Positions 6,785 to 19,829 of a stretch of 33,211 bases of DNA are shown here, one piece after another. Each line of letters starts with the position of its first letter. Positions within the stretch are counted from its first letter, which is position 1. This DNA is from a virus. The stretch covers positions 1-33,211 of IMG/VR virus record IMGVR_UViG_3300031758_000305. One strand, written 5' to 3'. Made by a program: the position numbers and the translations under genes. Under the pieces are notes generated by a model, which did not search any database, had not been told where the DNA came from, and saw nothing but the letters and a program-made list of their open reading frames with translations.

Positions 6785-7000
6785 ATGAAGCCCTGCCTGA
6801 TTGAACGACGATTCATCGACGATGGCGTGACCTATGAGCCAGGGGATACCGCTGAGTTCGATGACGCTCGAGCTGTTCAGTTGGCCGCTTTTGGGCTGGT
6901 CTCAGACGCTCCGGAGGCTGCTTTTGAACTCAATACTGATCCTGAATCCGCAGAACAAAACGAGGCTGAGACGCAGCCCAAACGCAAGAGGAGTAAATGA
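6785..7000 (+). CDS. Small head-region protein
   Basis: 71 aa, acidic in the middle and ending in a basic tail (KPKRKRSK-like, QPKRKRSK). It begins MKPCLIERRFIDDG followed by TYEPGD, a layout common in small proteins placed just after capsid genes, often of unknown function. It lies between the capsid and decoration genes and its stop overlaps the next ATG. A competing frame at 6834-7085 is less convincing because it would run across the start of the next gene. Confidence 0.6.
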   Translation: MKPCLIERRFIDDGVTYEPGDTAEFDDARAVQLAAFGLVSDAPEAAFELNTDPESAEQNEAETQPKRKRSK

Positions 7001-7386
7001 CGATGGGCGCGACTGTGCACGGCGAATATTCGACTGTCGAGAACGTTACCGCACTGCGAGCTGTGAGCAGTGGTCACCTGCATGAGTGCCCCGATGGCCG
7101 CATCGGCTATTACGGTGGCACACAGAACGTGGCCAGCGGTGCGGTGATTCCGTCACTCGAGACCGAGGTGGTCCTGAAGATCACCGCCGGCAATTTTGCG
7201 GCGATCGCTGCTGGCCAGCCGGCACGGATCAACATGACCACGCAGAATTTGGCACTGACTGGAACTGTGATCGGCACCTATGTGAAGGACAAGGCCCTGA
7301 ACGCCGCCTTCGGTGTGGTGGCCCTGAACAACGCTGGGCAGCCGGCAAACACCGCACAGATCCCGACAACCACAACGACCGTCTGA
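6997..7386 (+). CDS. Putative capsid decoration (cement) protein with Thr-rich C-terminus
   Basis: 129 aa, ATG overlapping the previous stop and preceded by AAGAGGAG. It is small, Gly/Ala/Thr-rich and beta-like, with a pattern (ALRAVSSGHLHECPDG, then PSLETEVVLKI) similar to DUF2190-type capsid cement proteins, and it follows the capsid gene as those do. Decoration proteins bind the outside of the mature capsid in high copy. The chain ends in IPTTTTTV, a Pro-Thr run that recurs in three other virion proteins of this phage. It is the last gene before a strong terminator, consistent with high-level expression of capsid plus decoration protein. Confidence 0.6.
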   Translation: MTMGATVHGEYSTVENVTALRAVSSGHLHECPDGRIGYYGGTQNVASGAVIPSLETEVVLKITAGNFAAIAAGQPARINMTTQNLALTGTVIGTYVKDKALNAAFGVVALNNAGQPANTAQIPTTTTTV

Positions 7387-7417
7387 TCAACCAATTGATC
7401 GAACGAACAACCCCTCC

Positions 7418-7455
7418 GCAGGTTGCAGTGCGAAAGCCTGCAGCCTGCTTTTTTT
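7418..7455 (+). terminator. Intrinsic terminator after the head genes
   Basis: An 11-bp stem (GCAGGTTGCAG with CTGCAGCCTGC, one G-U pair) is capped by T-GC-GAAA-GC, which adds two pairs and a GNRA tetraloop, and is followed by seven T. It sits 31 bases after the decoration gene and only 9 bases before the next start at 7465, leaving no room for a promoter. It therefore probably lowers rather than abolishes read-through into the connector genes, or is controlled by antitermination. Confidence 0.88.
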
Positions 7456-7464
7456 GAGACCACA

Positions 7465-7818
7465 ATGAGCCGCCGAACCGAAGCCGCCGCACACGTCAGA
7501 ACACGGATCAAAGCCGTGGCTGGCGACACTGCGACGATCACGCGAGGCGATGAAACGATTGCGGCGAACATACTGATCACCAAAGTCAGCAGCCGCAAAA
7601 ATCTGCAGTCGTTCGGTGGTGATTTCACGGTGGACTCGAATGAGCAGCTGTGGATCATCGGCCTCGATGTTTGCGGCGAGGATCTGCAGATTGGTGATCT
7701 GATTACGGTGGATGAAATTGAGTATCGAGTCTGTGAGTCGGCAACGACTGGCAGACATTGGCAGTGGTGGAACAACGACAACTCAGCGAAGATCTACACC
7801 TCGAGGCAGTGGCAATGA
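7465..7818 (+). CDS. Head-tail connector / head completion protein
   Basis: 117 aa from ATG 7465. The longer frame from 7423 would begin inside the terminator hairpin, so the later start is preferred, although its ribosome binding site is weak (GAGAC). The protein is beta-rich and polar with a region QLWIIGLDVCGEDLQIGDLITVDEIEYRV, that is, a barrel-like fold of the kind seen in head-closure or joining proteins. The position between decoration protein and a gp10-like protein supports a connector role, but no family signature is certain. The stop overlaps the next ATG. Confidence 0.5.
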   Translation: MSRRTEAAAHVRTRIKAVAGDTATITRGDETIAANILITKVSSRKNLQSFGGDFTVDSNEQLWIIGLDVCGEDLQIGDLITVDEIEYRVCESATTGRHWQWWNNDNSAKIYTSRQWQ

Positions 7819-8480
7819 GCGGGCAGGATTTTGCAATCCGGATGACGGTGAAACAGGCTAAGACCCTGTTCCTCGATCGTCCTGCAATAATCAGCCGCCT
7901 CGACAAAGTGGCCCGCCGCCGCCTGGCCACGTTCGGGGCCTACGTCATGCGAGTGGCTCGCAACTCGCTGGAACCCAAACGGGACCTGCGAGCGGATGAG
8001 CTGCCGCAGGAAATTAAGGAGCTTGTGGGGCTCGATAAGTTTGAGGTCAAGCGCGACAAACGCGGGCGATTTTTGCCCGGTGCTCGCAAGGCTCAAGACG
8101 CGGAACTGAAGGACATTGTGCAGCCGTGGCCGCAGACGATCTCGGCCCCAAATTCACCGCCGAACTACCGCAAGGACTACACATTCAGCGGCAAGATTTT
8201 CAGCCGCTTTCGTGACCTGATTTTATTCATCGTCGAACCGAATCTGGCCTCAGTGGTGATCGGCCCGATCATCTTCGACAACAAAGACATCCCAGGGCTG
8301 CTGGAGTATGGTGGGACCACCGTGGCATACCGGCCGCGATGGTTTCTGGCTGAAGAAAACAAGGTTCGAGCATCGTTTGAGAAAAAGCCGGTTACCGTGG
8401 CTCCGCGGCCATACATGCGACCGGCATTTGATACGGCAATTGATCGACAGATTCCGAGGATTTTTAGGGACATATTCTGA
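7815..8480 (+). CDS. Tail completion / minor head-tail protein (HK97 gp10-like)
   Basis: 221 aa from ATG 7815 (ATGA overlap with the previous stop); an in-frame ATG at 7758 lies inside the previous gene. It has a basic helical N-terminus (SRLDKVARRRLATFGAYVMRVARNSL), as in gp10-like neck proteins that begin with a helix and act at the head-tail interface, followed by an alpha/beta part with PGLLEYGGT and a C-terminal PRPYMRPAFD motif. The G-x-x-x-P-RPYMRPAF type of ending is frequent in HK97 gp10-like proteins. Its place just before the tube gene fits. Confidence 0.65.
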   Translation: MSGQDFAIRMTVKQAKTLFLDRPAIISRLDKVARRRLATFGAYVMRVARNSLEPKRDLRADELPQEIKELVGLDKFEVKRDKRGRFLPGARKAQDAELKDIVQPWPQTISAPNSPPNYRKDYTFSGKIFSRFRDLILFIVEPNLASVVIGPIIFDNKDIPGLLEYGGTTVAYRPRWFLAEENKVRASFEKKPVTVAPRPYMRPAFDTAIDRQIPRIFRDIF

Positions 8481-8950
8481 TGGCATACAAACACGGCCTT
8501 CGCGGCAAATTTTACGTTTCGGCCACACTGCATCAGGCTGGCACGTCAATCACGTGGTCCGAGGTTGACTTGACTGAATCCATCGGAATGGAGGATTCGC
8601 GAGCGGTTGCTGACGTGACCAACCGACGCGGCGAATTCACCACGCATGGAGTTGGGAAACGCACGCTGTCCTACACCGTGGCCTGCACCTACGATCCAGA
8701 CGATGCAGCACAGGCGATTCTGTGGACCGCATACCGCAACGGGACGCCGATTGCAGTGGCCGACATGGATGGAGCTATTGCAACCGCAGGGACAAAGGGT
8801 GTTTTTGCAGACATGGTTGTGACATCGGCACCAAAGCCCAGCGATCTGGCCGCGTTCAATTCGGTCGAATTCACGCTGCAGCCCGCAGCCGTGAGCACGT
8901 ACCAGCCGACGTTCCAGACGATTGCTGCACCGACGACCACGACTACCTGA
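8480..8950 (+). CDS. Major tail (tube) protein with Thr-rich C-terminus
   Basis: 156 aa, TGATG overlap with the previous gene. It precedes the tail chaperones and tape measure, the canonical place for the tube protein, which polymerises into the hexameric rings of the tail. The sequence is beta-rich (GLRGKFYVS, TWSEVDLTESIGMEDSRAV, AFNSVEFTLQPA), typical of the tube fold. The last residues are IAAPTTTTT, a second copy of the Pro-Thr tag seen at the end of the decoration protein; in a tube protein such a tail would point outward. Codons in the tag vary (ACG, ACC, ACT), arguing for protein-level selection. Confidence 0.75.
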   Translation: MAYKHGLRGKFYVSATLHQAGTSITWSEVDLTESIGMEDSRAVADVTNRRGEFTTHGVGKRTLSYTVACTYDPDDAAQAILWTAYRNGTPIAVADMDGAIATAGTKGVFADMVVTSAPKPSDLAAFNSVEFTLQPAAVSTYQPTFQTIAAPTTTTT

Positions 8951-8991
8951 TCTGATTTTTGAATCCGTTTCACGCTCTCGGGGGAGCAACG

Positions 8992-9186
8992 ATGAAACCT
9001 CAGCCAACCGTGCATTTTGTTCGCAACGCCGACGGCGGTTTGCAGTCATTCACGGCTATCCCATTCATGACTCTCGAGGAAGCTCGCGAGTATGGAGCAG
9101 CCAAAATTGCAGACCCGAATTTCATCCAGCAGCAGATTGCACAGGCATCCGCTGCGGTGAATGGAGGGGATAATGCCGCAGGTTAA
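8992..9186 (+). CDS. Small protein before the tail chaperones
   Basis: 64 aa from ATG 8992, chosen over 8959 because a clear ribosome binding site (GGGGGAG) precedes it by 8 bases. No domain was recognised; it contains FMTLEEAREYGAAKI, a short helix. It overlaps the next gene by 14 bases. It may take part in tail assembly, judged only by location. Confidence 0.6.
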   Translation: MKPQPTVHFVRNADGGLQSFTAIPFMTLEEAREYGAAKIADPNFIQQQIAQASAAVNGGDNAAG

Positions 9187-9640
9187 ACTGAAGCGCGGCC
9201 GTCAGCTCGAGTGTGAAGCCACACTCGGGCTGTTGCGCCGCATCAAACGGATTCATGGCATCGACCTGCTGAGCCGAGACGTGAAGGTCTTCGCGCAGTT
9301 TCTCGGACAGTCCGATGTTTGCTGGCCAGTGGTCTGCGAATTCTACGGTCTGCAGACTGAGGCACAGCAGGAGGAACTGGCGGAGACTGCCACCGGGGCT
9401 GACGTCGCAGCTCTGATTCGCGGAGTGAATGAGAGTCTTCGCGATTTTTTCCAATCAAGCGGCGAACCAGAGATGGCCGCCGCACTGGAGAAGGCGATCG
9501 AGACAGTGCAGGCAGGACGGCAGACTCTCGCTCAGAGGATCACGGCGACGGATCTGGTGAGCGAGATGACGCGGGAGATCCTCTCGATGGATTTGAGCCC
9601 TGGGAACTCGTCTACGCCGCAGCTGGTCGACTCAGCCTGA
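9173..9640 (+). CDS. Tail assembly chaperone, upstream (G-like) product
   Basis: 155 aa from ATG 9173, with GGAGGGG directly upstream. The protein is helical and acidic and starts MPQVKLKRGRQLECEATLG, a pattern typical of lambda G-type tail assembly chaperones that coat the tape measure protein before tube polymerisation. It lies two genes before the tape measure. Codons 92-93 (TTT TTC) form a slippery site that would let some ribosomes shift to the -1 frame and make the longer G-T fusion; see the downstream segment at 9451-9846. Without frameshifting it ends at the TGA at 9638-9640. Confidence 0.7.
   Translation: MPQVKLKRGRQLECEATLGLLRRIKRIHGIDLLSRDVKVFAQFLGQSDVCWPVVCEFYGLQTEAQQEELAETATGADVAALIRGVNESLRDFFQSSGEPEMAAALEKAIETVQAGRQTLAQRITATDLVSEMTREILSMDLSPGNSSTPQLVDSA
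9445..9480 (+). promoter_or_regulatory. Probable -1 ribosomal frameshift signal
   Basis: The heptamer T TTT TTC (9445-9451) is exactly in the reading frame of the upstream chaperone gene, matching the X_XXY_YYZ rule. Seven bases downstream a GC-rich hairpin is possible (GCGGC 9459-9463 with GCCGC 9476-9480, 12-base loop), a spacing usual for stimulatory structures. The last stop in the -1 frame is upstream at 9430-9432, so a shift here gives an uninterrupted frame to 9846. Confidence 0.6.
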
Positions 9641-9846
9641 GCCCCGATCCTTACACCTGGCGGGAACTCGATACCATGGATCGGGCCCGCCGGTGTGAGG
9701 AGTGGGACAAGGTTTCTTCGGTCATGGCTGTGACTGTCGACGTGTGGTCGAAACGGCCCGGTGACATGCTCAGATTCAACCCGTACAAAATCGAAAAACC
9801 AAAGCCGCCGAAACCTGAGGTCAGTCCGTTTCTGCGGTGGTTGTGA
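9451..9846 (+). CDS. Tail assembly chaperone, frameshifted (T-like) segment
   Basis: The -1 frame relative to the upstream gene is open to a TGA at 9844-9846. It has no ATG, GTG or TTG before its recognisable domain; the first ATG is at 9676, inside the domain. The domain begins near 9595 with FEPWELVYAAAGRL, continues SPDPYTWRELDTM, then EEWDKVSSVMAVTVDVW and a Pro/Lys-rich end. This is the typical pattern of the second tail chaperone ORF (W-E-L-x-x-x-AG, TxRELxxM, W, A-N/V-x). A shift at 9445-9451 would give a 224-aa fusion with a roughly 45-residue charged linker. A shift nearer the end of the upstream gene, or initiation on a rare codon, are alternatives. It ends 10 bases before the tape measure start. 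Confidence 0.7.
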   Translation, partial: PIKRRTRDGRRTGEGDRDSAGRTADSRSEDHGDGSGERDDAGDPLDGFEPWELVYAAAGRLSLSPDPYTWRELDTMDRARRCEEWDKVSSVMAVTVDVWSKRPGDMLRFNPYKIEKPKPPKPEVSPFLRWL

Positions 9847-9855
9847 GGTTCGCAA

Positions 9856-12045
9856 ATGCCATCGAGTCGATCAGTACGAGCGGGCCGGGCATTCGTGGAA
9901 TTTTTCCTCGAGGACAACCCGCTCAAACGTGGCCTCACCGTGGCAGAACGCCGCCTGCGGCAGTTCGGTGCAAGGGTCCAGAACATTGGTCGAACTGCAT
10001 TCGCTGCGGGGTTTGGTGGGCTCGCCGCAACGGCCCTTCCAGTGGCTCAGCTGATCCAGTTTGATGATGCAATTCGGATGACTGGGGCAGTGTCGCAGGC
10101 CACTGGAGCACAGCTGGAGCAGCTCCGCGAAACGGCCCTCGAGTTAGGGCGAACCACCTCATTCACAGCGGTGCAGGTGGCTCAGCTGATGGGTGAGTTG
10201 GGCAGAGCTGGTTTCAGGCCGGATGAAATCGACACGATGACCGCCGCGGTCTTGAATCTCTCGCGAGCGAGCGGGACTGATGCTGTCATGTCCGCCGGCC
10301 TGATGGCCGCCACGCTCCGGCAGTTCTCGCTGGGAGCCGAGCACGCTACGCGAGTGGCTGACGTCCTGACGCTGGCGGCAAACTCGACATTCAACAGTGT
10401 CGACCAGCTGGGCGAGGCTCTCAGCTACGCTGGCCCGGTGGCCGCGGATCTCGGAATGTCCCTCGAGGATACCGTTGCAATTCTCGGAACGCTCGGAAAC
10501 GTCGGCATTCAGGGCAGCAACGCAGGAACAGCACTCCGCCGCCTTGGGACGATCACAGCCGCCGAGGCAGACAAAATGCGGCAGCTGTTTGGGGTGGAAT
10601 TTCTGGACGCGGCCGGCAATCTCCGGCCGCTGGTTACCGTCATGGGCGAACTGGCCAGGGCAACCAATGGCCTACCCAGTGGCCAGCGAATCGCCAAAAT
10701 GAATGAGGCATTCGGCCTGCTGGGGATCACCGGGGCGACAGTGGTCGCAAACACCGCCGCCGAAACTGAGAGGCTTTCACAAGCCCTCATGAGTGCTGGT
10801 GGCACAGCAGAGCGGACCGCCAACCAAATGGACGCTGGGCCCGGCGGAGTGTGGCGACGATTTACCTCAGCGATCGAGGGAGCCGCAATTGCGATCGGGA
10901 CTGCACTGTCTCCGATGCTCGAGCAATTCGGAACGTACATCACCGATCTCACCGGAAGAATCACTGGATGGATCGCGCAGAACCAGCAGCTGATCGTCTA
11001 CGCTCTGAAGCTCACCGCTGTCGTGTTCACGGCTGGCGTGGCCCTGATCGCAACCGCAAAAATCCTGTCGTCTCTGGCTGTGGTGGCTGCGGCTGCCGGC
11101 TTGGCCGTGGCAATCGTGACGAAGATTTTTGCGATCGCGACCGCAGCCGCCGGCCTGCTGGGTTCCGCGGTCACTCTGATGCTGAATCCGTGGATTGCAA
11201 TCCCGGTAGTTTTGGCCGCTGCTGGCGTGGCGATCGCAGGGGCTGACGTGAACCTGCAGGGCATGGCTAACACGATGCTGGCGACGTTCACGCCGGCATT
11301 CATGCAGGTGGTTGATATGGTCCGATCTGGTGACCTCGAGGGGGCTCTTGAGCTCGCCATGTCTTCAGCATGGGCCGCCATCCGAATCGGGCTGATAAAC
11401 ATCCGATCCGGGATGAATGAAATGGGCATCACGATCCGCGAAATTTGGGCTCAGCTGTGGAACAACATCACGCTGGCTCCGGCCTCCGCGGTGGCGATGA
11501 TTCAGGACAAGATTCAGGAACTGACCGACTGGGCCAACAGCATGGTCGGCCGCGACGTTCCACAGCGAATCAGCAACGTTGAAAAGCTGAATCAGATGGT
11601 CCGAGCCGAAGAGGACCAGCGACAGGCCGCATACGAGGCCGAGCGGCAGGCTTACGCCGCCGAGGTGCAGGCTGTTCAGCTCGAGCTGCAGACCGCAGTG
11701 GATCAGGCAAAGGCCCGCAGCGAGGTGCTCAAAAAGGACCAAAAACAGATCTCGCAGATTGATCCGAATCAGCCCGGCGGAACCTCACCGGGCAACCAGC
11801 TGGCCACGCAGGTACGCCGCAACGTGACCGCGGTCCAGCAGGAGCGGGCCGCATTCGTCGACGCTGTGGACAAACGCACGCAGGAAGGGCAGCGAGCGAT
11901 TTACGAATCGCTGAATCAGCAGGCCGCACAGGACGAGACAACAGAGGCGGTCAAATCGCTTGAGGGAACGCTCGAGGATGAGTTTGAGCGGACCCGCCGC
12001 GAAAACCGCCAGAATGCAGTCGTGATCAAAGGGAGCCGCAGATAA
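9856..12045 (+). CDS. Tail tape measure protein
   Basis: 729 aa. The tape measure sets tail length and is injected ahead of the DNA. The N-terminal 330 residues show the TP901-type phage tail tape measure core: repeated helical Ala/Leu-rich stretches such as TGAVSQATGAQLEQLRETA, LGRTTSFTAVQVAQLMGELG and GALSYAGPVAADLG-like text. Residues about 375-470 are strongly hydrophobic (several candidate membrane-crossing segments). Residues about 580-700 form a Gln/Glu-rich coiled coil. By the usual 0.15 nm per residue the tail would be near 110 nm. The stop overlaps the next start (TAATG). Confidence 0.92.
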   Translation: MPSSRSVRAGRAFVEFFLEDNPLKRGLTVAERRLRQFGARVQNIGRTAFAAGFGGLAATALPVAQLIQFDDAIRMTGAVSQATGAQLEQLRETALELGRTTSFTAVQVAQLMGELGRAGFRPDEIDTMTAAVLNLSRASGTDAVMSAGLMAATLRQFSLGAEHATRVADVLTLAANSTFNSVDQLGEALSYAGPVAADLGMSLEDTVAILGTLGNVGIQGSNAGTALRRLGTITAAEADKMRQLFGVEFLDAAGNLRPLVTVMGELARATNGLPSGQRIAKMNEAFGLLGITGATVVANTAAETERLSQALMSAGGTAERTANQMDAGPGGVWRRFTSAIEGAAIAIGTALSPMLEQFGTYITDLTGRITGWIAQNQQLIVYALKLTAVVFTAGVALIATAKILSSLAVVAAAAGLAVAIVTKIFAIATAAAGLLGSAVTLMLNPWIAIPVVLAAAGVAIAGADVNLQGMANTMLATFTPAFMQVVDMVRSGDLEGALELAMSSAWAAIRIGLINIRSGMNEMGITIREIWAQLWNNITLAPASAVAMIQDKIQELTDWANSMVGRDVPQRISNVEKLNQMVRAEEDQRQAAYEAERQAYAAEVQAVQLELQTAVDQAKARSEVLKKDQKQISQIDPNQPGGTSPGNQLATQVRRNVTAVQQERAAFVDAVDKRTQEGQRAIYESLNQQAAQDETTEAVKSLEGTLEDEFERTRRENRQNAVVIKGSRR

Positions 12046-13067
12046 TGGCACTGCCACAGGCCAGACTTTGGCGCCGCGAACTCGCCCACCAGCGAGACGG
12101 CGAGCTGACGTATCCTCAGGATGGCACGCCTGAGCGCCGCGTGACTGAATACTGGAACCTGATCTGCCTGACCGATCAGGCCGACATGTCAGAGGATCTC
12201 TGCGCCGCCCTGTTTCCGGATCTGGCCCCAGGCATCTACCGCCAAAACGGCTACTATGTCGAGCGGCTGAAGATTGAAAAACTCGCGAGCTCCGAACACT
12301 GTCAGGCGGTTGTCGAAACTGTGCTTCGCGTGGGCTCAGGCCGCGGGACTGTGTACGATCCGAATCCGCTCCGCCGCCCACTGAGGTGGGAAGTGGACAC
12401 CGATTTTGAAGAGATTCCCGCGGAAGTCGACGGCGAGGGAAATCAGCTGGTGAATACCGCCGGCGAGCAGCTGATCGGCATCGTCCGCGAGGAGCAGATT
12501 TTGGTGTTCAATGCCACGCGATACGTGACGCAGATACCGCAGTGGCTGGGGCAGTTTGCCCATGTCTGCTGCAACTCCGAACCAGTCGATCTGGATGGAT
12601 TCATCGCAGCCCCCGAGACGCTGAAAATGAAGGGGGTTCGCCTCAGCCTGCCACAGTACACTGAGGTGGATGGCCGCGAGGTGGAGTACCGGGAAATGCC
12701 CCTGCAATTCCTGTATCGTGAGACCACGTGGCGGACGGAATATTTGAATCAGGGGCTGACGGAATACTTCCCGCCGAAACCCATTTACGCACCGTGGGAA
12801 CAGACGCTCATCGGTCAGCCGCGGAAGATCCTGGCCTACACTCAGGAGATTCGTAGACCAGCCACAGACTCCGCTGGTAAACAGGTGCAAAAACCGGTAC
12901 CACTAAACAAGGACGGCAACCAGATCCGCGAATACAAAAACGTGGCACCGCCAGATCAAACTCCACAGTTTGAGTGGGTGCTGAAACAGAAACTGGACAA
13001 GGCGGATCTGCATTTTGTTTCGTACCTGATCCCGCGAAAACTCGATTTTAACCTGCTGTTTACCTGA
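12045..13067 (+). CDS. Tail protein of unknown type after the tape measure
   Basis: 340 aa, TAATG-coupled to the tape measure gene. Location suggests a distal tail or baseplate-like component. Visible features are RRVTEYWNLICLTDQ near residue 31, a central Glu/Asp-rich beta region (about residues 105-150) and a C-terminal part ending FVSYLIPRKLDFNLLFT. No enzyme motif is seen. The gene ends 8 bases before the next start. Confidence 0.6.
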   Translation: MALPQARLWRRELAHQRDGELTYPQDGTPERRVTEYWNLICLTDQADMSEDLCAALFPDLAPGIYRQNGYYVERLKIEKLASSEHCQAVVETVLRVGSGRGTVYDPNPLRRPLRWEVDTDFEEIPAEVDGEGNQLVNTAGEQLIGIVREEQILVFNATRYVTQIPQWLGQFAHVCCNSEPVDLDGFIAAPETLKMKGVRLSLPQYTEVDGREVEYREMPLQFLYRETTWRTEYLNQGLTEYFPPKPIYAPWEQTLIGQPRKILAYTQEIRRPATDSAGKQVQKPVPLNKDGNQIREYKNVAPPDQTPQFEWVLKQKLDKADLHFVSYLIPRKLDFNLLFT

Positions 13068-13075
13068 GGTGAAAA

Positions 13076-15940
13076 ATGCCCCTGAATAAATTTCGCGGCG
13101 ACGCTCTCCCGCAGCCGAAAGTTGTCCGCCTGCTGTCTCCGCAGACCGCCGGAATCGTCGAGGCTGAGATCACCTGCGGATCTCGAGTGTTTAAGTTCTC
13201 GACGTGGAACGCCGCCACGATTGCGAGCACGCTGCAGAATTCGGGGGCTCCGGAATTCGCGAACCTCGCATTCACGGCGAGCAATGGCGACGTGGTTTGC
13301 GCTGGCCCTGATGACGATGATTTCATCATCTCGATGAGTCTCCGCCCCACCGTGACCGTGGCCAACGATCTCGGGGCAACGCCAGTGAATCAGATCACCG
13401 CCCTCAATTTCGCCGGGGCTCGGGCCGGTACGTACAAGCTCACAATCAACGGTGTGACAACCAGCTCGATCACCTACGGCGACGCGGCGGGGCTGCTCAC
13501 AGCGATCGCAGGAACCACGGGCAAGGCCTCCGCAGTGACAATCCGATCGGCGACGCCTGATCAGATTCTGCTGGAGTGGATTGGCGAACTGGCAGCCGTT
13601 CCGGTGGCTGTCGTGATGGATGCGAGCACGCTGCAGAATGGGACTGTGGTGAATGTCCGCGAACGCACTCCATACCGAGCTGGCCCGCATGACGTGTGGA
13701 TGCTCGGAGTCGAAAGCAACTCGACGTTCACTCTGACGATTGACGGCAATTCTGCCACAGTGCGATCGGATGACGGGATTGACCGCGTGAGGCAGATCGT
13801 CAAATCGCTGGCCACCAATAACGTCGAGGTCTACGGCGGGATTTTGGCCAGTGGTGCAGGCGTTACCGGCGCTCACTACGTTCTCGATTTTGTGGGCTAC
13901 ACCTCAGCCAGCCGCCCAACGATTTCGATCAGCAGTGTGGTGGGTGCAACGGCCCTGAAAATTCTGAACAACCCGACTGCACAGCTCTCAGTTACCACAG
14001 CATTCGGCACCACAAATTCGAACCGCGGTTACGCTGCTCACTGGCTGCTCGATTTCACCACTGGAAACACGATCACACTGGAGTATCAGGGCCGGCAGGT
14101 GACGCTGACAAATGCCGGGGCAACGGTGCAGCCTGACTACAGCAGCACGGCGCAGAATGCGGCCTATTCAGATGCTGCCATTGCCGCCGCAAATTCACTG
14201 AATGACATCAGCGACTTCAGCGACTTTCTCGGAATCGTCGGTGTGCACATCGGAAACTCGGAGCAATGGGGGGCCGCCAGCTATGCCCCAGGCTCATTCT
14301 ACCACCCCCAGTTGATTCACCTGATCGACAACGCATCGACGCTGGCCGCTGCGGCAATCGACGGCAGTTTCCGGCAGGTTGGCGGGACTGGTGTGCTCCG
14401 CAAAATCAACGACGCCGGCAGCGCTGCCGCCGGAGCTGTCCACGCGATCTCACTGCCAGCTCGCACGAGCTCCGGTACGTTCCGCCTGACGCTGCCTGAG
14501 GGTCTGACTGCGGCAATCGCGTGGAACGCCTCAGCCGCGACCGTAGAGGCTCAGTTTGACGGCCTCATCCCCAGCGGGGTATCCGTCACCGGATCCGGCA
14601 CTGAGGCCAGCCCGTGGCTGGTGACCTATGCCGCCTCGCAGCGGGTGCGAGTGCTGCCGGTACCAACCGCGGTGGCTCTCGGGGGCAACGGGACGGGATC
14701 CGCGACTGTCTACCGTGAGCACGTGGTCGCACGCACGCAGACCGCCACAATCGCCGTGAGCCGCTCTGCAGTCACCGGCGGATTCTATCTGACCTTCGGC
14801 ACTGAGGGCCCGCTGTACGTGGCTGTGGGCACGTCCGCGGCCTCACTCAGGACTCTGCTGGCAACGCTGCCATCAATCGGCAGTGTGGATAACGTGGTGG
14901 TCACCTATTCGTCGGACTCCACCAGCTATCTGATCACGTTCACCAGCGGGCTGTCGAGCAAGCTGCTGCCGCTGTTTGCGATCCAGCTGAACGCGATCGA
15001 CGTCTCGACGGTCAACACGCTGTCAGTGAGCCAGCGAGCCACTGGGCCGCGGAACTGGGCGGACCCAACCAACTGGACGCTGGGCCGTGTGCCAGGGGCT
15101 CTCGATGACGTGACAATCGACAACGCCGCCGGCGATCTCCGCTATGGTCTGCGGCAGTGGGTGCCGGTGACTGTCGAGACGATCTACACGCCACTGCCGA
15201 CAACCACGACCAGTTCGACCACAACCACCACGGCCGCTCCGCTGGGGGCCCTGAATCGACTGCGGGCGGTTGGTGGGCACGATTTCAGGACTGGCCAGAT
15301 TGTGCGACTGCAGTCGACGGGGACGATTCCCGCGGGGCTGTCAGCCGGCACCAGCTACTACGTTTTGGACGCGGACAACGAAGCCGGGACATTCCAACTG
15401 TCCGCGACCGCAACCGGCAGCCCGATCACGATCACCAGCGCAGGATCCGGCACGATCTACTGTGGGCTGCAGGTGGCATCGTTCCGGATCTCCGCAGCCT
15501 ACACCTCGCAGCTGGGCCGCAGTGAGAGAACCTCGATCAACAATTCCGTGGAGTACCTGCCGCGATATCTGTCTGTCGGTGTGCCATCAGGGACCGCCGC
15601 GGAAATTGGTCTCGGGCTGGGCCGCGGATCTTCGCTGATCCGTCTTGATCTCGGCATCTCCGCCGGTACACTGCGAGTGGTGCGGACGGGGACGAGTGAC
15701 GAGCAGGATAAGGCCGCCTGCTGTGCGCTGCTGAACAACACCAGTGCGACGGCTGAGGTGATCACAGGTGAGCTGGGGCTAGCTGCATTCGACGGCGAGT
15801 CGGTGACGCTGGGGACGCTGGAGCAAAATAACGGGCTGGTGGTTGGCGGTGCGGTGGCTCTCGGGACACTCACCAAAAACGCCGGCCGCATGATCATGCG
15901 ACAGCTCACTGCGAGTGGAGTGGTGACGATTCGGGGGTGA
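13076..15940 (+). CDS. Large modular tail fibre / adhesin-like protein
   Basis: 954 aa, ATG 13076 preceded by GAGGTG. It is rich in Ser, Thr, Ala and Gly and almost free of Cys and Lys, typical of beta-structured fibres. Four diverged copies of one module are visible near residues 118, 215, 467 and 567, each with a G-T-F/Y-x-L-T opening, then A-S-A/N-A-S-A and a closing V-T-F/Y strand. NWTLGRVPGALDD (about residue 670) is a motif common in surface beta-helix proteins. A Pro-Thr linker (PTTTTSSTTTTTAAP, about residues 707-722) precedes an FCCH-like small domain (HDFRTGQIV ... AGTSYYVLD). Its place at the tail end and the next gene's related module support a host-contact structure. Confidence 0.65.
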   Translation: MPLNKFRGDALPQPKVVRLLSPQTAGIVEAEITCGSRVFKFSTWNAATIASTLQNSGAPEFANLAFTASNGDVVCAGPDDDDFIISMSLRPTVTVANDLGATPVNQITALNFAGARAGTYKLTINGVTTSSITYGDAAGLLTAIAGTTGKASAVTIRSATPDQILLEWIGELAAVPVAVVMDASTLQNGTVVNVRERTPYRAGPHDVWMLGVESNSTFTLTIDGNSATVRSDDGIDRVRQIVKSLATNNVEVYGGILASGAGVTGAHYVLDFVGYTSASRPTISISSVVGATALKILNNPTAQLSVTTAFGTTNSNRGYAAHWLLDFTTGNTITLEYQGRQVTLTNAGATVQPDYSSTAQNAAYSDAAIAAANSLNDISDFSDFLGIVGVHIGNSEQWGAASYAPGSFYHPQLIHLIDNASTLAAAAIDGSFRQVGGTGVLRKINDAGSAAAGAVHAISLPARTSSGTFRLTLPEGLTAAIAWNASAATVEAQFDGLIPSGVSVTGSGTEASPWLVTYAASQRVRVLPVPTAVALGGNGTGSATVYREHVVARTQTATIAVSRSAVTGGFYLTFGTEGPLYVAVGTSAASLRTLLATLPSIGSVDNVVVTYSSDSTSYLITFTSGLSSKLLPLFAIQLNAIDVSTVNTLSVSQRATGPRNWADPTNWTLGRVPGALDDVTIDNAAGDLRYGLRQWVPVTVETIYTPLPTTTTSSTTTTTAAPLGALNRLRAVGGHDFRTGQIVRLQSTGTIPAGLSAGTSYYVLDADNEAGTFQLSATATGSPITITSAGSGTIYCGLQVASFRISAAYTSQLGRSERTSINNSVEYLPRYLSVGVPSGTAAEIGLGLGRGSSLIRLDLGISAGTLRVVRTGTSDEQDKAACCALLNNTSATAEVITGELGLAAFDGESVTLGTLEQNNGLVVGGAVALGTLTKNAGRMIMRQLTASGVVTIRG

Positions 15941-15943
15941 TAG

Positions 15944-16795
15944 GTGGCAGAGGAATTATTCGCGATTGAGCCGGCAGACCGCCGGCCGTTCAACGACCTG
16001 GTGGACTGGTGGAGGCGGGTGGCAATTAACGGCCCGCAGTTCTCCGCCGGCGGCGGGGCTGAGGCTGTGCCGCTGATGATTCTGCGAGCTCCCGAGGGCT
16101 GGACTCTCGGGCGCTACGCTCCCATGATCGTCGACGCCGCTTACCCCTACAGTTACGACGTCTGTCTGATCGGTTATCCGGCGGCCTACAATGCGGGACA
16201 GATCCAGCCGGGAACATTCCGCGTAGCATGGCAGGGCGTGCAGTCCCAGCCGATCCCGTTTAACGCGACGGCGGTCCAATTCCGGGCCGCCCTGCCACAA
16301 CCGCTGCGGGATCTGTGCAAGGTCACCGGCGGGACGATCACGGACACTGTGGCCACTGGCGAAACGTACTATCCCGGCCGATGGTTTGTTTCGCTGCCGG
16401 AGCGATTCTCCGGCCTGACCGCAGTACCACTGACCGCTGGCACGCTAGACACGGTGGTCCTGCGGGTCTCGGAATCGCCGCTGTCGGTGGCTCCGATGGT
16501 GTTCCCCTGCTGGTGTCTGGTCAACCGCACAACCTCGCCGCGGATCGCAGCTGGGGCCCTCGCACTGGGCTGGTACACTCAGGGACTGGGGCTGATGATC
16601 GGGGCTGTTGAACCTCGCATTTACGAAGAATACAGCGGGATCATTTATCAGCCGACCACGACAACCACGGCCGCTCCGACAGGGCCGACCACAACCACGA
16701 CCGCGGGACCGACAACAACCACAACCACAGCAACGCCGACAACCACAACACCAGCGGAAACCACCACCACCCCAGGCGGACTAATGCCCCCATGA
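15944..16795 (+). CDS. Virion surface protein with mucin-like Pro/Thr tail
   Basis: 283 aa, GTG start 3 bases after the previous stop, with GGGGG upstream. Residues about 89-160 repeat the module of the preceding fibre (GTFRVAWQGV ... FNATAVQFRAAL). The last 48 residues (from about 236) are Pro/Thr-rich, 26 of them Thr, arranged as five PTTTT-type blocks separated by short Ala/Gly/Pro steps. Such a tract resembles the O-glycosylated repeats of mucins. The stop overlaps the ATG of a glycosyltransferase-like gene (ATGA), so the two are likely translationally coupled. Function is inferred as a surface or fibre protein; no enzyme motif is visible. Confidence 0.6.
   Translation: MAEELFAIEPADRRPFNDLVDWWRRVAINGPQFSAGGGAEAVPLMILRAPEGWTLGRYAPMIVDAAYPYSYDVCLIGYPAAYNAGQIQPGTFRVAWQGVQSQPIPFNATAVQFRAALPQPLRDLCKVTGGTITDTVATGETYYPGRWFVSLPERFSGLTAVPLTAGTLDTVVLRVSESPLSVAPMVFPCWCLVNRTTSPRIAAGALALGWYTQGLGLMIGAVEPRIYEEYSGIIYQPTTTTTAAPTGPTTTTTAGPTTTTTTATPTTTTPAETTTTPGGLMPP
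16652..16774 (+). repeat. Thr-rich (PTTTT)n coding repeat
   Basis: This 123-base tract at the end of the surface-protein gene encodes about five Pro-Thr blocks. At the DNA level Thr codons are mixed (ACC, ACG, ACA), not a simple triplet repeat, so the protein sequence rather than slippage seems maintained. Shorter versions encode IPTTTTTV (end near 7386), APTTTTT (end near 8950) and PTTTTSSTTTTTAAP (about 15196-15240). Confidence 0.85.
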
Positions 16796-17718
16796 AACTG
16801 ACAATCGGATTCGCGACACACAACGATTTTGATGGCCTGTATTTCTCGCTTAACGCTCTCCGACTGTATCACTCGCATGTGATAGAGGACGTGGAGCTAA
16901 TCGTCATCGACAACGCCCCGGACTCACCATGTGGGCAGCGGGCGAAGGGCCTGTTCAGCCACATAAACTCCGGCATTCAAAGTGGTCAGCCGGGGCATCC
17001 GTTTTCCGCTCGCTGGATACCGTTCGGCGAGATTCAGGGGACGTCCGCACCGCGGGATAGGATATTCCACGAAGCCGCCGGCGATGCTGTGCTGGTGATG
17101 GATTCGCATGTTATGCTGGTGGGCGGAGCCGTTGAAAAACTGCTGGCGTTTTACCGCCAAAATCCAGACTGCAGAGACCTATTGTCAGGCCCGCTGCTGC
17201 TGGATAATCACTCCACAGTCTACACGCATTTTACCGACACGTGGCGAGATGGCATGTGGGGGACGTGGGGCATCGACGATCGGGGCCGAGACATCGACGC
17301 GGAGCCGTTTTCCATTCCCGCCATGGGGCTCGGATTGTTCAGTTGCCGCCGCGATGCGTGGCTGGGCTTCAATCCGCATTTCCGCGAGTTTGGCGGGGAA
17401 GAATGGTACATCCATGAGAAGTTTCGCAAGGCCGGCTACGACTGCAAATGCCTGCCGTTCCTGCGATGGCAGCACAGATTCGGCGATCCGGTGGGCGGCA
17501 GAAAATCACCGCTTAGCCTCCATGGAAAGATCCGCAATTTTATGATCGGACATCAGGAGCTTGGGATTAGTCTGGAGCGACTGCGGAACCACTACGTCTA
17601 CGGGATTAACGAGGATACCGGGCTGGGTGAATCCCGCGATGGCCGCCTGACGTCGGCACAGTTTGCGACGCTGGCCAGCAATCCGATAGCCTACCCTGCA
17701 CTCTCACTGTTCTGCTGA
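16792..17718 (+). CDS. GT-A glycosyltransferase, polypeptide GalNAc-transferase-like
   Basis: 308 aa, starting in an ATGA overlap with the Thr-tailed protein. The order of motifs fits a GT-A fold enzyme of the GT2/GT27 group: an ATHND opening strand (residues 8-12), ELIVIDNAP (35-43), GTSAPRDRIFHEA (83-95), then LVMDSH with the metal-binding D-x-H at 104-106 rather than D-x-D, and MGLGLFSCRRDAW followed by FGGEEWYIHEKFRKAG (about 178-215) and WQHRFG (226-231). Polypeptide GalNAc-transferases likewise use DSH/DAH, a GGLF-GGEN-E-x-S-F-R stretch and a G-H-V-F-R end. The likely substrates are the Thr-rich tails of the virion proteins, by inference from context. Donor sugar and acceptor cannot be read from sequence. 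Confidence 0.65.
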   Translation: MKLTIGFATHNDFDGLYFSLNALRLYHSHVIEDVELIVIDNAPDSPCGQRAKGLFSHINSGIQSGQPGHPFSARWIPFGEIQGTSAPRDRIFHEAAGDAVLVMDSHVMLVGGAVEKLLAFYRQNPDCRDLLSGPLLLDNHSTVYTHFTDTWRDGMWGTWGIDDRGRDIDAEPFSIPAMGLGLFSCRRDAWLGFNPHFREFGGEEWYIHEKFRKAGYDCKCLPFLRWQHRFGDPVGGRKSPLSLHGKIRNFMIGHQELGISLERLRNHYVYGINEDTGLGESRDGRLTSAQFATLASNPIAYPALSLFC

Positions 17719-17726
17719 GGCATCCC

Positions 17727-18383
17727 ATGCGAATCCCCGCATTCATTACATCACGCGATCTCACGTCAGTAATCGACATGGCTGAGAAGCTGCGGCAGTG
17801 CAGGGCGATTAGCTCGGTTTGGGTCTTGGATTGCAACTCAACCTACAGGCCGCTGCTGGAAGCCTATTCGCGTTTGTCCGGCGGAATCTCAGTTTCCTAC
17901 GGTCAGAACCACGGCTGCAGGGCATACTGGGAGCGATTTAAGTTTGTGAACGCACCACCGTTCTATCTCGTCACAGACGGGGATCTGGACATCAGCCATT
18001 GGACCGGCGAGGAAATCGACATCATGCTGGATCGGCTGCGGAGTCAGCAGCAGCTGATCAAGGTGGGATCTGCCTTGTCGATTAACGACCTGCCGGACAC
18101 CGAGCTGGGCCGCAAGGCATTCAAGCACGAGTCGCAGTTTTGGACTCACCAAACCGGACCGGGATTTTTCGCAGCCGACATCGACACGACGCTGGCAATT
18201 TATCGCACGCCGGACTGGCATGGATATTACCCAGCGGAACGCTGTAGCTTAGCGATGGCACGGCACCTCCCATGGTATCTTGACATCAACAATCTGCCAG
18301 ACGATCACAGGCACTATCTGAGCCGCGATGATCATCAAGCTGGCACACACTGGAGCGGACTACTGCGATGCAAAACCAACTGA
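17727..18383 (+). CDS. Glycosyltransferase-like protein (GT-A type)
   Basis: 218 aa, starting 8 bases after the previous gene with GAGGCATCCC upstream. A DGDLDI motif (about residues 84-89) after a hydrophobic strand (FYLVT) looks like the metal-nucleotide binding D-x-D of GT-A enzymes. Other visible features are NHGCRAYWERF (61-71), FWTHQTGPGFFAADIDTTLAIYR (written here only as a location, about 137-160) and ARHLPWYLD near residue 183. The family of small glycosyltransferases that share the RHLPWYL and DIDTT patterns is known in bacteria and phages. Acceptor unknown. It overlaps the next gene by 16 bases. Confidence 0.6.
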   Translation: MRIPAFITSRDLTSVIDMAEKLRQCRAISSVWVLDCNSTYRPLLEAYSRLSGGISVSYGQNHGCRAYWERFKFVNAPPFYLVTDGDLDISHWTGEEIDIMLDRLRSQQQLIKVGSALSINDLPDTELGRKAFKHESQFWTHQTGPGFFAADIDTTLAIYRTPDWHGYYPAERCSLAMARHLPWYLDINNLPDDHRHYLSRDDHQAGTHWSGLLRCKTN

Positions 18384-19126
18384 TCCTGCCACGTGTCACG
18401 TGGATTACACCGACTTACTGCCGGCCGCAAACGCTGCCGAATTTGATCGCCTGTTTTCAGGCTCAGCAGTATCCGCCAGAGCAACTGCAACTGATCATCC
18501 TCGACGATGCTGGCCAGTATTCTGAGGACTGCCGCGGAGATCGGTGGAAGGTGATTTCGATTAACCAGCGATTCAACTCGCTGCCGGGCAAATTTAACGC
18601 CTTGGTTTCACTCGCTGAGATTGGCGATGAACATGACATCATCATCGTGGCGGAGGATGATGATTCATTCCTGCCGCATCATACGATGGCTCATGTGACA
18701 GCATTGGAAGATGGCGATTTCAGTAAGCCCTCGCAAGTGCTCAGTGATTACGGCTGCAGCCTTGGTGAGGCGATTATTGAGGAGGCTGCTGGCAGATTTC
18801 ACGGCTCGATCGCATTCCGCCGAACTCACTGGGCTGAGCGCGGCGGATGGCCGCTCACTGACGCCGCAAATTTTGATCAGCAGATGATGAGTCATTTCGC
18901 GGCCGCCGGCAAGACAGTCGACCCATGTCAGTATGCTCCACCGTCCTACGTTTTTCGCTGGCATACCAACCAGTACCACGGGCAATCACTGGCCAGCGGG
19001 CCGGCAGATACGCAGTGGTACCGGGACCACGAGCGGCAGCAGCTCGGACGCGAATGGGTCCAGACACTCAGCCCCCAGCTCGATATCTACACGCAGGTAC
19101 TGTATGCACGCGAGCACAATCTGTAA
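18368..19126 (+). CDS. Family 2-like glycosyltransferase
   Basis: 252 aa. It starts VTWITPTYCRPQTLPNLI, the standard opening of family 2 glycosyltransferases, followed by QLIILDDAG (about residues 41-49) and a D-x-D region at AEDDDSFLP (95-103). The C-terminal half has GSIAFRRTHW and a mixed alpha/beta region. It is the third glycosyltransferase-type gene in a row, overlapping the second by 16 bases, so the three likely act on one glycan or one set of acceptors. No membrane segment is seen, so a cytoplasmic enzyme is likely. Confidence 0.75.
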   Translation: MQNQLILPRVTWITPTYCRPQTLPNLIACFQAQQYPPEQLQLIILDDAGQYSEDCRGDRWKVISINQRFNSLPGKFNALVSLAEIGDEHDIIIVAEDDDSFLPHHTMAHVTALEDGDFSKPSQVLSDYGCSLGEAIIEEAAGRFHGSIAFRRTHWAERGGWPLTDAANFDQQMMSHFAAAGKTVDPCQYAPPSYVFRWHTNQYHGQSLASGPADTQWYRDHERQQLGREWVQTLSPQLDIYTQVLYAREHNL

Positions 19127-19139
19127 TCCGTGGAATCCC

Positions 19140-19829
19140 ATGCCGGGCTGGCTGCACCCTGGGGCCCTCGATGACCCGATGGCCCCCGAGATTGCGGTGA
19201 CCAACCGCGGGTGTTTCGACGCTATCGGTGTGCCGTACCTGATCGCAGTCTATCAGGACGATACGCTGATCGACGTCTGCCGGCGGGTGCTGCAGACCAC
19301 TGGCTATCTCGTCTCATATGACACGACACTGCTGGCGAATCTGGTGGCGACTGAGGGACCGGAGCGCGGCAGCCGCATTTATCGCGACCTGTTCAACTGG
19401 CAGTTCTGCCGGCGGCGAAACACCAGTACGCTGAATGAGAATTTGGCCGGTTTTTTCTGGTCCGGATCGGGCCGCGAGCACCCAAAATGGACCGGCAAAA
19501 CCTACACGATTCAGGCCAACGAATACCTGCCGCCGGGAGCTCGATTCGCCGAGCCGCCGGAGAATCCACCAGTGGCTGGCAGGCCGACGATTACCGAGGG
19601 TGATGACCTGCGGCGATGGTCGATGTTTTCGCGGACCGCTCCGCAGACGATCGACCCACCGACACCCTACGACGTCTGGCAGTCATACGATGCGGAGCCG
19701 GGGACCACAGCGGGCCTGCCTGCCGACGTCTACCGGAGCGGCGTTTTTCCGTTTCCGGAGGTGATTTTGTGGGGCTGCAGCCCCGTAAATCTCATGGACC
19801 GCATCCATCTAAAGCCACTCCAACTCTGA
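19140..19829 (+). CDS. Hypothetical protein after the glycosyltransferase cluster
   Basis: 229 aa from ATG 19140, just after the previous stop. An ATG at 19104 would overlap the previous gene by 23 bases and cannot be excluded; the frame is open to 18933 but that part is a shadow of the glycosyltransferase gene. The protein has no recognised domain. It contains ALDDPMAPEIAVTNRG and a Pro-rich region (EPPENPPVAGRP). It may be a tail or glycan-related protein, but only position supports that. Confidence 0.55.
   Translation: MPGWLHPGALDDPMAPEIAVTNRGCFDAIGVPYLIAVYQDDTLIDVCRRVLQTTGYLVSYDTTLLANLVATEGPERGSRIYRDLFNWQFCRRRNTSTLNENLAGFFWSGSGREHPKWTGKTYTIQANEYLPPGARFAEPPENPPVAGRPTITEGDDLRRWSMFSRTAPQTIDPPTPYDVWQSYDAEPGTTAGLPADVYRSGVFPFPEVILWGCSPVNLMDRIHLKPLQL

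Follow-up and report, generated by a model that had tools for sequence, protein, structure and literature searches.

Phage particles are usually regarded as bare protein, and to our knowledge, proven virion glycosylation is limited to a few actinobacteriophages. In animals and Toxoplasma, mucin-type O-glycosylation is started by the polypeptide N-acetylgalactosaminyltransferases (GalNAc-transferases) of family GT27. The Pfam family PF11397 includes the polypeptide alpha-N-acetylglucosaminyltransferases (alpha-GlcNAc-transferases, GT60) of Dictyostelium and trypanosomes. Virion glycosylation is known for the mycobacteriophages Che8, Corndog and Myrna, where phage-encoded glycosyltransferases (GTs) modify capsid and tail-tube proteins (PMC12363180, citing Freeman et al. 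2023). Here, we analyzed the IMG/VR record IMGVR_UViG_3300031758_000305 (positions 1 to 33,211), a whole viral contig of 33.2 kb referred to below as the window, which likewise has a phage-encoded GT beside structural genes. This enzyme, GT1, follows a gene with a threonine (Thr)-rich tail, and an earlier inspection of the letters without database searches (the sequence-only reading) had proposed a possible phage O-glycosylation system. Judging from comparative sequence data and structure prediction, we consider it likely that Thr tracts on virion proteins are glycosylated by GT1.

GT1 shares with the GT27 enzymes a predicted GT-A fold and, in the same order, a DxH metal site, a GGE motif and a C-terminal His, and its predicted acceptor is a Pro/Thr tract. 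Unlike them, it is viral and cytoplasmic, shows only about 15% identity and is also GT2-like in its N-terminal half. No ricin-type lectin domain or other extra domain was found within its 308 residues, and therefore we file it as GT27-like and not as a GT27 member. Virion glycosylation is already known, but a tract-directed, mucin-like version with GT27-like and GT60-like enzymes looks new. A literature search for phages with Thr tracts or with enzymes of family GT27 or GT60, with most subscription journals and bioRxiv outside its coverage, found nothing relevant.

GT1 and the Thr tracts of the window

An AlphaFold2 model of GT1, built from eight sequences, reached a predicted local distance difference test (pLDDT) of 84.6 and a predicted template modelling score (pTM) of 0.87. 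Using this model in a Foldseek search against the PDB, the top 50 matches were all polypeptide GalNAc-transferases (E 3e-14 to 5e-11, query-based template modelling score of about 0.6). D104, H106, G133, G157, W159, W226, H228 and N249 were invariant in 80 of 80 viral relatives, and GGEE (201-204) was kept in 79 of them. Profile alignment to GalNAc-T10 (E 9e-6) spanned profile positions 33-221, which is most of the catalytic domain, and placed its DSH, GGE and final His on D104xH106, GGEE and H228 of GT1. Other GTs aligned to the GT1 profile over the N-terminal half only, among them a GlcNAc-transferase that matched more strongly than GalNAc-T10. Pfam reported only Glycos_transf_2 for all GT1 members tested, the window GT1 itself being sub-threshold, and a homologue search of 50,697 named phage records returned none. 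The assignment of GT1 as GT27-like, already made by the sequence-only reading, is the best-supported part of the proposed module.

Runs of TTTT or longer occurred in only 4 of the 36 called open reading frames (ORFs), every one in the structural region, and these are exactly the four proteins singled out before. The nine observed runs compare with shuffled means of 0.45 runs and 0.43 proteins (residues shuffled within each protein), and four or more run-bearing proteins were reached in 1 of 2000 shuffles. No run was present in portal, tape measure, connector-region or replication proteins among the called ORFs, and the unused frames of the four tract genes contained three isolated TTTT only, none preceded by Pro. 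The last fibre-region protein carries five runs. Its Pro/Thr tail indeed holds 26 Thr, although within 47 residues instead of the 48 counted earlier, and its TGA (16793-16795) overlaps the ATG of GT1 (16792-16794) in the ATGA junction described before. Of the earlier virion labels, that of the tail tube was upheld by its PHROG match; the terms decoration and fibre have gene order or very weak matches to profiles as their basis. A relative of the large fibre-region protein matches PHROG minor tail (E 1e-5). For the small structural-region protein, no match was found in the family libraries and none in the PDB search; apart from the tail tube, the libraries gave nothing useful for the tract proteins or the gene at 19107. 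All four proteins would be placed on the particle exterior.

All four tracts were kept in the relatives L010-L013, L020 and L021, whose GT1 identity ranges from 65 to 100%. In these relatives, the tail tube ends in APTTTTT, APTTTTV or GATTTTAAP, and the small structural-region protein carries PTTTTTV, PTTTTV, PTTTTAAP or PTTTTPAP in every relative holding this tract. In the last fibre-region protein, the tail varies in length and repeat order but keeps its Pro/Thr-richness. Within the runs of the window, Thr is encoded by ACC (22), ACA (15), ACG (9) and ACT (1), and across 11-12 sequences the tract codons vary freely among these four while Thr persists. Since the codons drift synonymously yet Thr stays, the alignments indicate that selection acts on the amino acid and not on the DNA, which agrees with the earlier argument from mixed codons.

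Recurrent pairing of glycosyltransferases with Thr-rich genes

For the surveys, a gene with two or more TTTT runs was defined as Thr-rich. The survey anchored on GT1 comprised 42 viral representatives at 80% identity, of which 37, obtained through GT1 homology alone, were left after removing five tract-ascertained loci. Within 2.5 kb of GT1, a Thr-rich gene was located upstream in 17 of these 37 and downstream in 0 of 36 (Fisher 1e-6); L019 is one further GT1 locus with such a partner, beyond the 17. The upstream partner usually stops within 40 bases of GT1. The window GT1 falls in a supported clade of 18 (Shimodaira-Hasegawa-like approximate likelihood ratio test, SH-aLRT, 98), and a Thr-rich partner accompanies 15 of its 16 viral members. 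Outside that clade, the trait flips between sister pairs (L045/L032, L044/L059), with seven changes among the viral rows. After masking of the tracts, the partner proteins were nearly all unrelated (3 weak local matches among 17), and the GTs beside unrelated partners stay about 40-55% identical to the window GT1.

The survey anchored on the tape measure covered loci that extend 5.5 kb or more downstream and gave a Thr-rich gene in 7/7 GT1-positive loci, which represent two lineages (six loci of the window lineage and the distant L334), and in 0/17 GT1-negative loci. A tract-anchored set of 80 fragments with a PTTTTT-A-(A/G)-P coding sequence contained GT1 in eight, three of them on contigs already in the GT1 scan. 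The survey of related phages suggested by the sequence-only reading favours a link between tracts and GT1, which is seen in the tape-measure loci and in the unrelated Thr-rich partners preceding GT1. Its limits are that about half of the GT1 relatives have no tract nearby and that many tract phages have no GT1 in their fragment, some carrying a GT60-type enzyme instead.

This second enzyme family emerged when 58 of 64 listed tract-gene neighbours were put through a family search, as the neighbours in GT1-less loci include matches to Pfam GlcNAc (PF11397, E 5e-38). A survey anchored on PF11397 found 151 viral relatives, and the best 80 of these yielded 33 representatives, three from tract-ascertained contigs. 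Among this subset, a Thr-rich gene was found within 2.5 kb upstream in 26 of 33 representatives and downstream in 0 of 31. Six members were tested, and all matched PF11397 at E 1e-34 or better. In many environmental phages, PF11397 enzymes follow PTTTTTAAP-tract genes (L366, L375, L377, L385, L437 and others), as GT1 follows its tract gene. In contrast to GT1, they belong to a different GT family and are absent from the window, and we regard them as a parallel solution. Both the GT27-like and the GT60-type family are located behind phage Thr tracts, so that two unrelated families known in eukaryotes as starters of mucin-type chains share this position.

Some Thr-rich partners of GT1 are also very Cys-rich, with up to 113 Cys (L014, L019, L022, L023, L024, L025, L028, L053, L068, L334). 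Here, the alternation of Cys-containing modules with Thr runs resembles the make-up of eukaryotic mucins. In a separate GT1 branch, the enzyme gene immediately follows a conserved 506-aa gene whose C-terminus is terminase-like, and the surroundings hold no Thr tract, so that the acceptor must differ (L054-L056, L062, L064-L067, L069-L076, L078-L080, L085-L087, L090).

Proposed virion glycosylation and alternative explanations

We propose that this region encodes a module for virion O-glycosylation, active in the host cytoplasm while particles assemble. GT1 would use a host uridine diphosphate (UDP)-sugar to attach one sugar, most likely GalNAc or GlcNAc, to Thr of the Pro/Thr tracts. Acceptors would be the C-terminal tracts of the tail tube and of the putative decoration protein, the internal tract of the large fibre-region protein and, in the last fibre-region protein, its tail. 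The two following GT-like proteins, one with a DGD motif and GT3 of the GT2 family, would then probably build a short chain on this sugar. The resulting particle would bear flexible, mucin-like, sugar-coated tails, which might shield surface sites, confer protease resistance or hold the phage to glycan-rich surfaces.

Several points weigh against this proposal. Similarity of fold among GT-A enzymes does not settle donor or acceptor, and the N-terminal half of GT1 also matches polysaccharide GTs. In the tail tube and in the putative decoration protein, the tract comprises only five Thr. The tie between GT1-family enzymes and tracts is not universal, because in 20 of the 42 viral representatives the 2.5 kb upstream contain no Thr-rich gene, several having none within 10 kb. 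Moreover, a GT1- or GT60-type gene was present in just 11 of the 80 tract fragments; these are short, but tracts may also function without glycosylation. The tape-measure loci are non-independent, so that their effective number is small.

The remaining 69 fragments are what one would expect if the tracts were passive disordered linkers or spacers and the GTs acted elsewhere, such as on the host envelope (seroconversion) or on DNA, their adjacency reflecting the phage habit of placing host-interaction genes after tail genes. Tract-less GT1 relatives, some beside terminase- or portal-like genes, and the best PDB profile match of GT3, which is among envelope-type GTs, point in the same direction. 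We nevertheless consider passive linkers unlikely, as the pairing with Thr-rich genes is upstream-only and strong for GT1 as well as for the unrelated GT60-type family, and GT1 and Thr-rich genes are present or absent jointly in the tape-measure lineage. GT1 also has a predicted fold of the GT27 type, whose known acceptors are peptides. A spacer would not require Thr, which is selected while flanks and codons change, and plain adjacency leaves unexplained why the partners have only the tract in common.

Less probable again is a module that glycosylates virion proteins at other Ser/Thr of capsid or tail proteins, with the tracts serving as binding or spacing elements. There is a precedent in the established capsid and tail-tube glycosylation by GTs of mycobacteriophages (PMC12363180, citing Freeman 2023), and the tract-less GT1 relatives need another acceptor. 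GT1 co-distributes specifically with Thr-rich genes, however, and the unrelated partner proteins share little besides their tracts. An origin of the tracts as products of DNA repeat slippage without selected protein function, to which a loose 6-base ACAACC period in one stretch (16715-16749) and the leaning of run codons to ACC and ACA might point, was rejected as highly improbable, since the codons are mixed, the tracts are limited to four proteins and nearly every Thr codon differs synonymously in relatives while Thr is kept at the same C-terminal position in two proteins.

With glycosylation of the tracts by GT1 as the preferred explanation, these phages probably coat themselves with mucin-like sugars. 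A broader generalization, on which we are evenly divided, is that mucin-type O-glycosylation of virion Pro/Thr tracts is widespread in environmental tailed phages via at least two unrelated families (GT27-like and GT60-like), and that their relatives on bacterial chromosomes modify small Thr-rich proteins destined for export. Such a phage system may represent an ancient or a parallel counterpart to the mucin glycosylation of eukaryotes. If this is true, mucin-like sugar tails would be common on environmental phages, which bears on adsorption and particle stability as well as on the origin of mucin-type glycosylation. Glycoprotein engineering in bacteria would also gain useful tools, namely GT27-like and GT60-like enzymes that are small and cytoplasmic and have Thr tracts as their native substrates. 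The pairing offers a simple testable rule, namely to seek a GT adjoining a TTTT-tract gene.

Genomic context, likely host and bacterial relatives

The gene order of the window is siphovirus-like: terminase, portal, a protease-capsid fusion, connectors, tail tube, tape measure, distal tail and fibre-region genes, the three GT-like genes and replication genes. Profile support is clear only for the tail tube and for the fusion of protease and capsid, which matches PHROG head maturation protease at E 1e-26; the labels terminase, portal, tape measure and replication come from gene order and reading of the sequence, not from family searches. Table 1 lists the features of the proposed module.

Table 1. 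Tract proteins, glycosyltransferase-like genes and the adjoining conserved gene in the window
Feature	Coordinates	Strand	Remarks
Small structural-region protein	6997..7386	+	Ends IPTTTTTV; head decoration role suggested by position; predicted glycosylation substrate
Tail tube (major tail) protein	8480..8950	+	C-terminal APTTTTT; PHROG major tail, E 5e-5; predicted substrate
Large tail/fibre-region protein	13076..15940	+	Internal PTTTTSSTTTTTAAP at residue 708; predicted substrate
Last tail/fibre-region protein	15944..16795	+	Mucin-like C-terminal Pro/Thr tail; main predicted substrate
GT1, GT27-like (polypeptide GalNAc-transferase-like) GT-A glycosyltransferase	16792..17718	+	308 aa; predicted initiating enzyme
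GT-A-fold protein with DGD motif (D84, D86)	17727..18383	+	Probable second glycosyltransferase; lineage-restricted
GT3, GT2-family glycosyltransferase with DDD motif	18368..19126	+	Probable chain-extending enzyme
Conserved protein after the GT cluster	19107..19829	+	Kept in the same lineage; about 50% identical in distant relatives; no family match

The two genes following GT1 had been called glycosyltransferase-like, and the additional analyses agree. For the DGD-motif protein, the predicted model shows a GT-A fold, and searches of Pfam, NCBIfam and PDB sequences gave no match. GT3 scored just under the cut-off for Pfam Glycos_transf_2, had a PDB profile match to a beta-1,3-glucosyltransferase (E 2e-7) and accompanies GT1 in many otherwise unrelated phages.

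A scan of the window for tRNA genes as a clue to the host found none. The closest relatives outside the viral collections are located in Planctomycetaceae assemblies (L210-L213, 58%), where GT3 is present too. In L211 and L212, both the tail tube and the tape measure find weak matches, and a Thr-rich gene of 1011-1014 residues stops 20 bases before GT1. By these matches, the region belongs to a phage or prophage related to the window phage, and because the closest relatives sit in Planctomycetaceae assemblies in this form, the host of the window phage is likely a planctomycete. In two Schlesneria assemblies (L214, L215), GT1 relatives at 45-46% lack both phage genes and an adjoining Thr-rich gene.

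Further GT1 relatives are encoded on bacterial chromosomes (L217:7302-12329, L258, L240, L231, L250, L268, L271), where they are fused to an HprK-related kinase domain, as tested in L217 and L258. The L217 locus also holds PqqD-like and NTP_transf_5 genes. Near these chromosomal relatives, we observed small proteins with a signal resembling those of twin-arginine translocation (Tat), in which W.KPVV.SV.PAHA is followed by Thr-rich tails; these loci possibly constitute an undescribed modification system for exported Thr-rich proteins.

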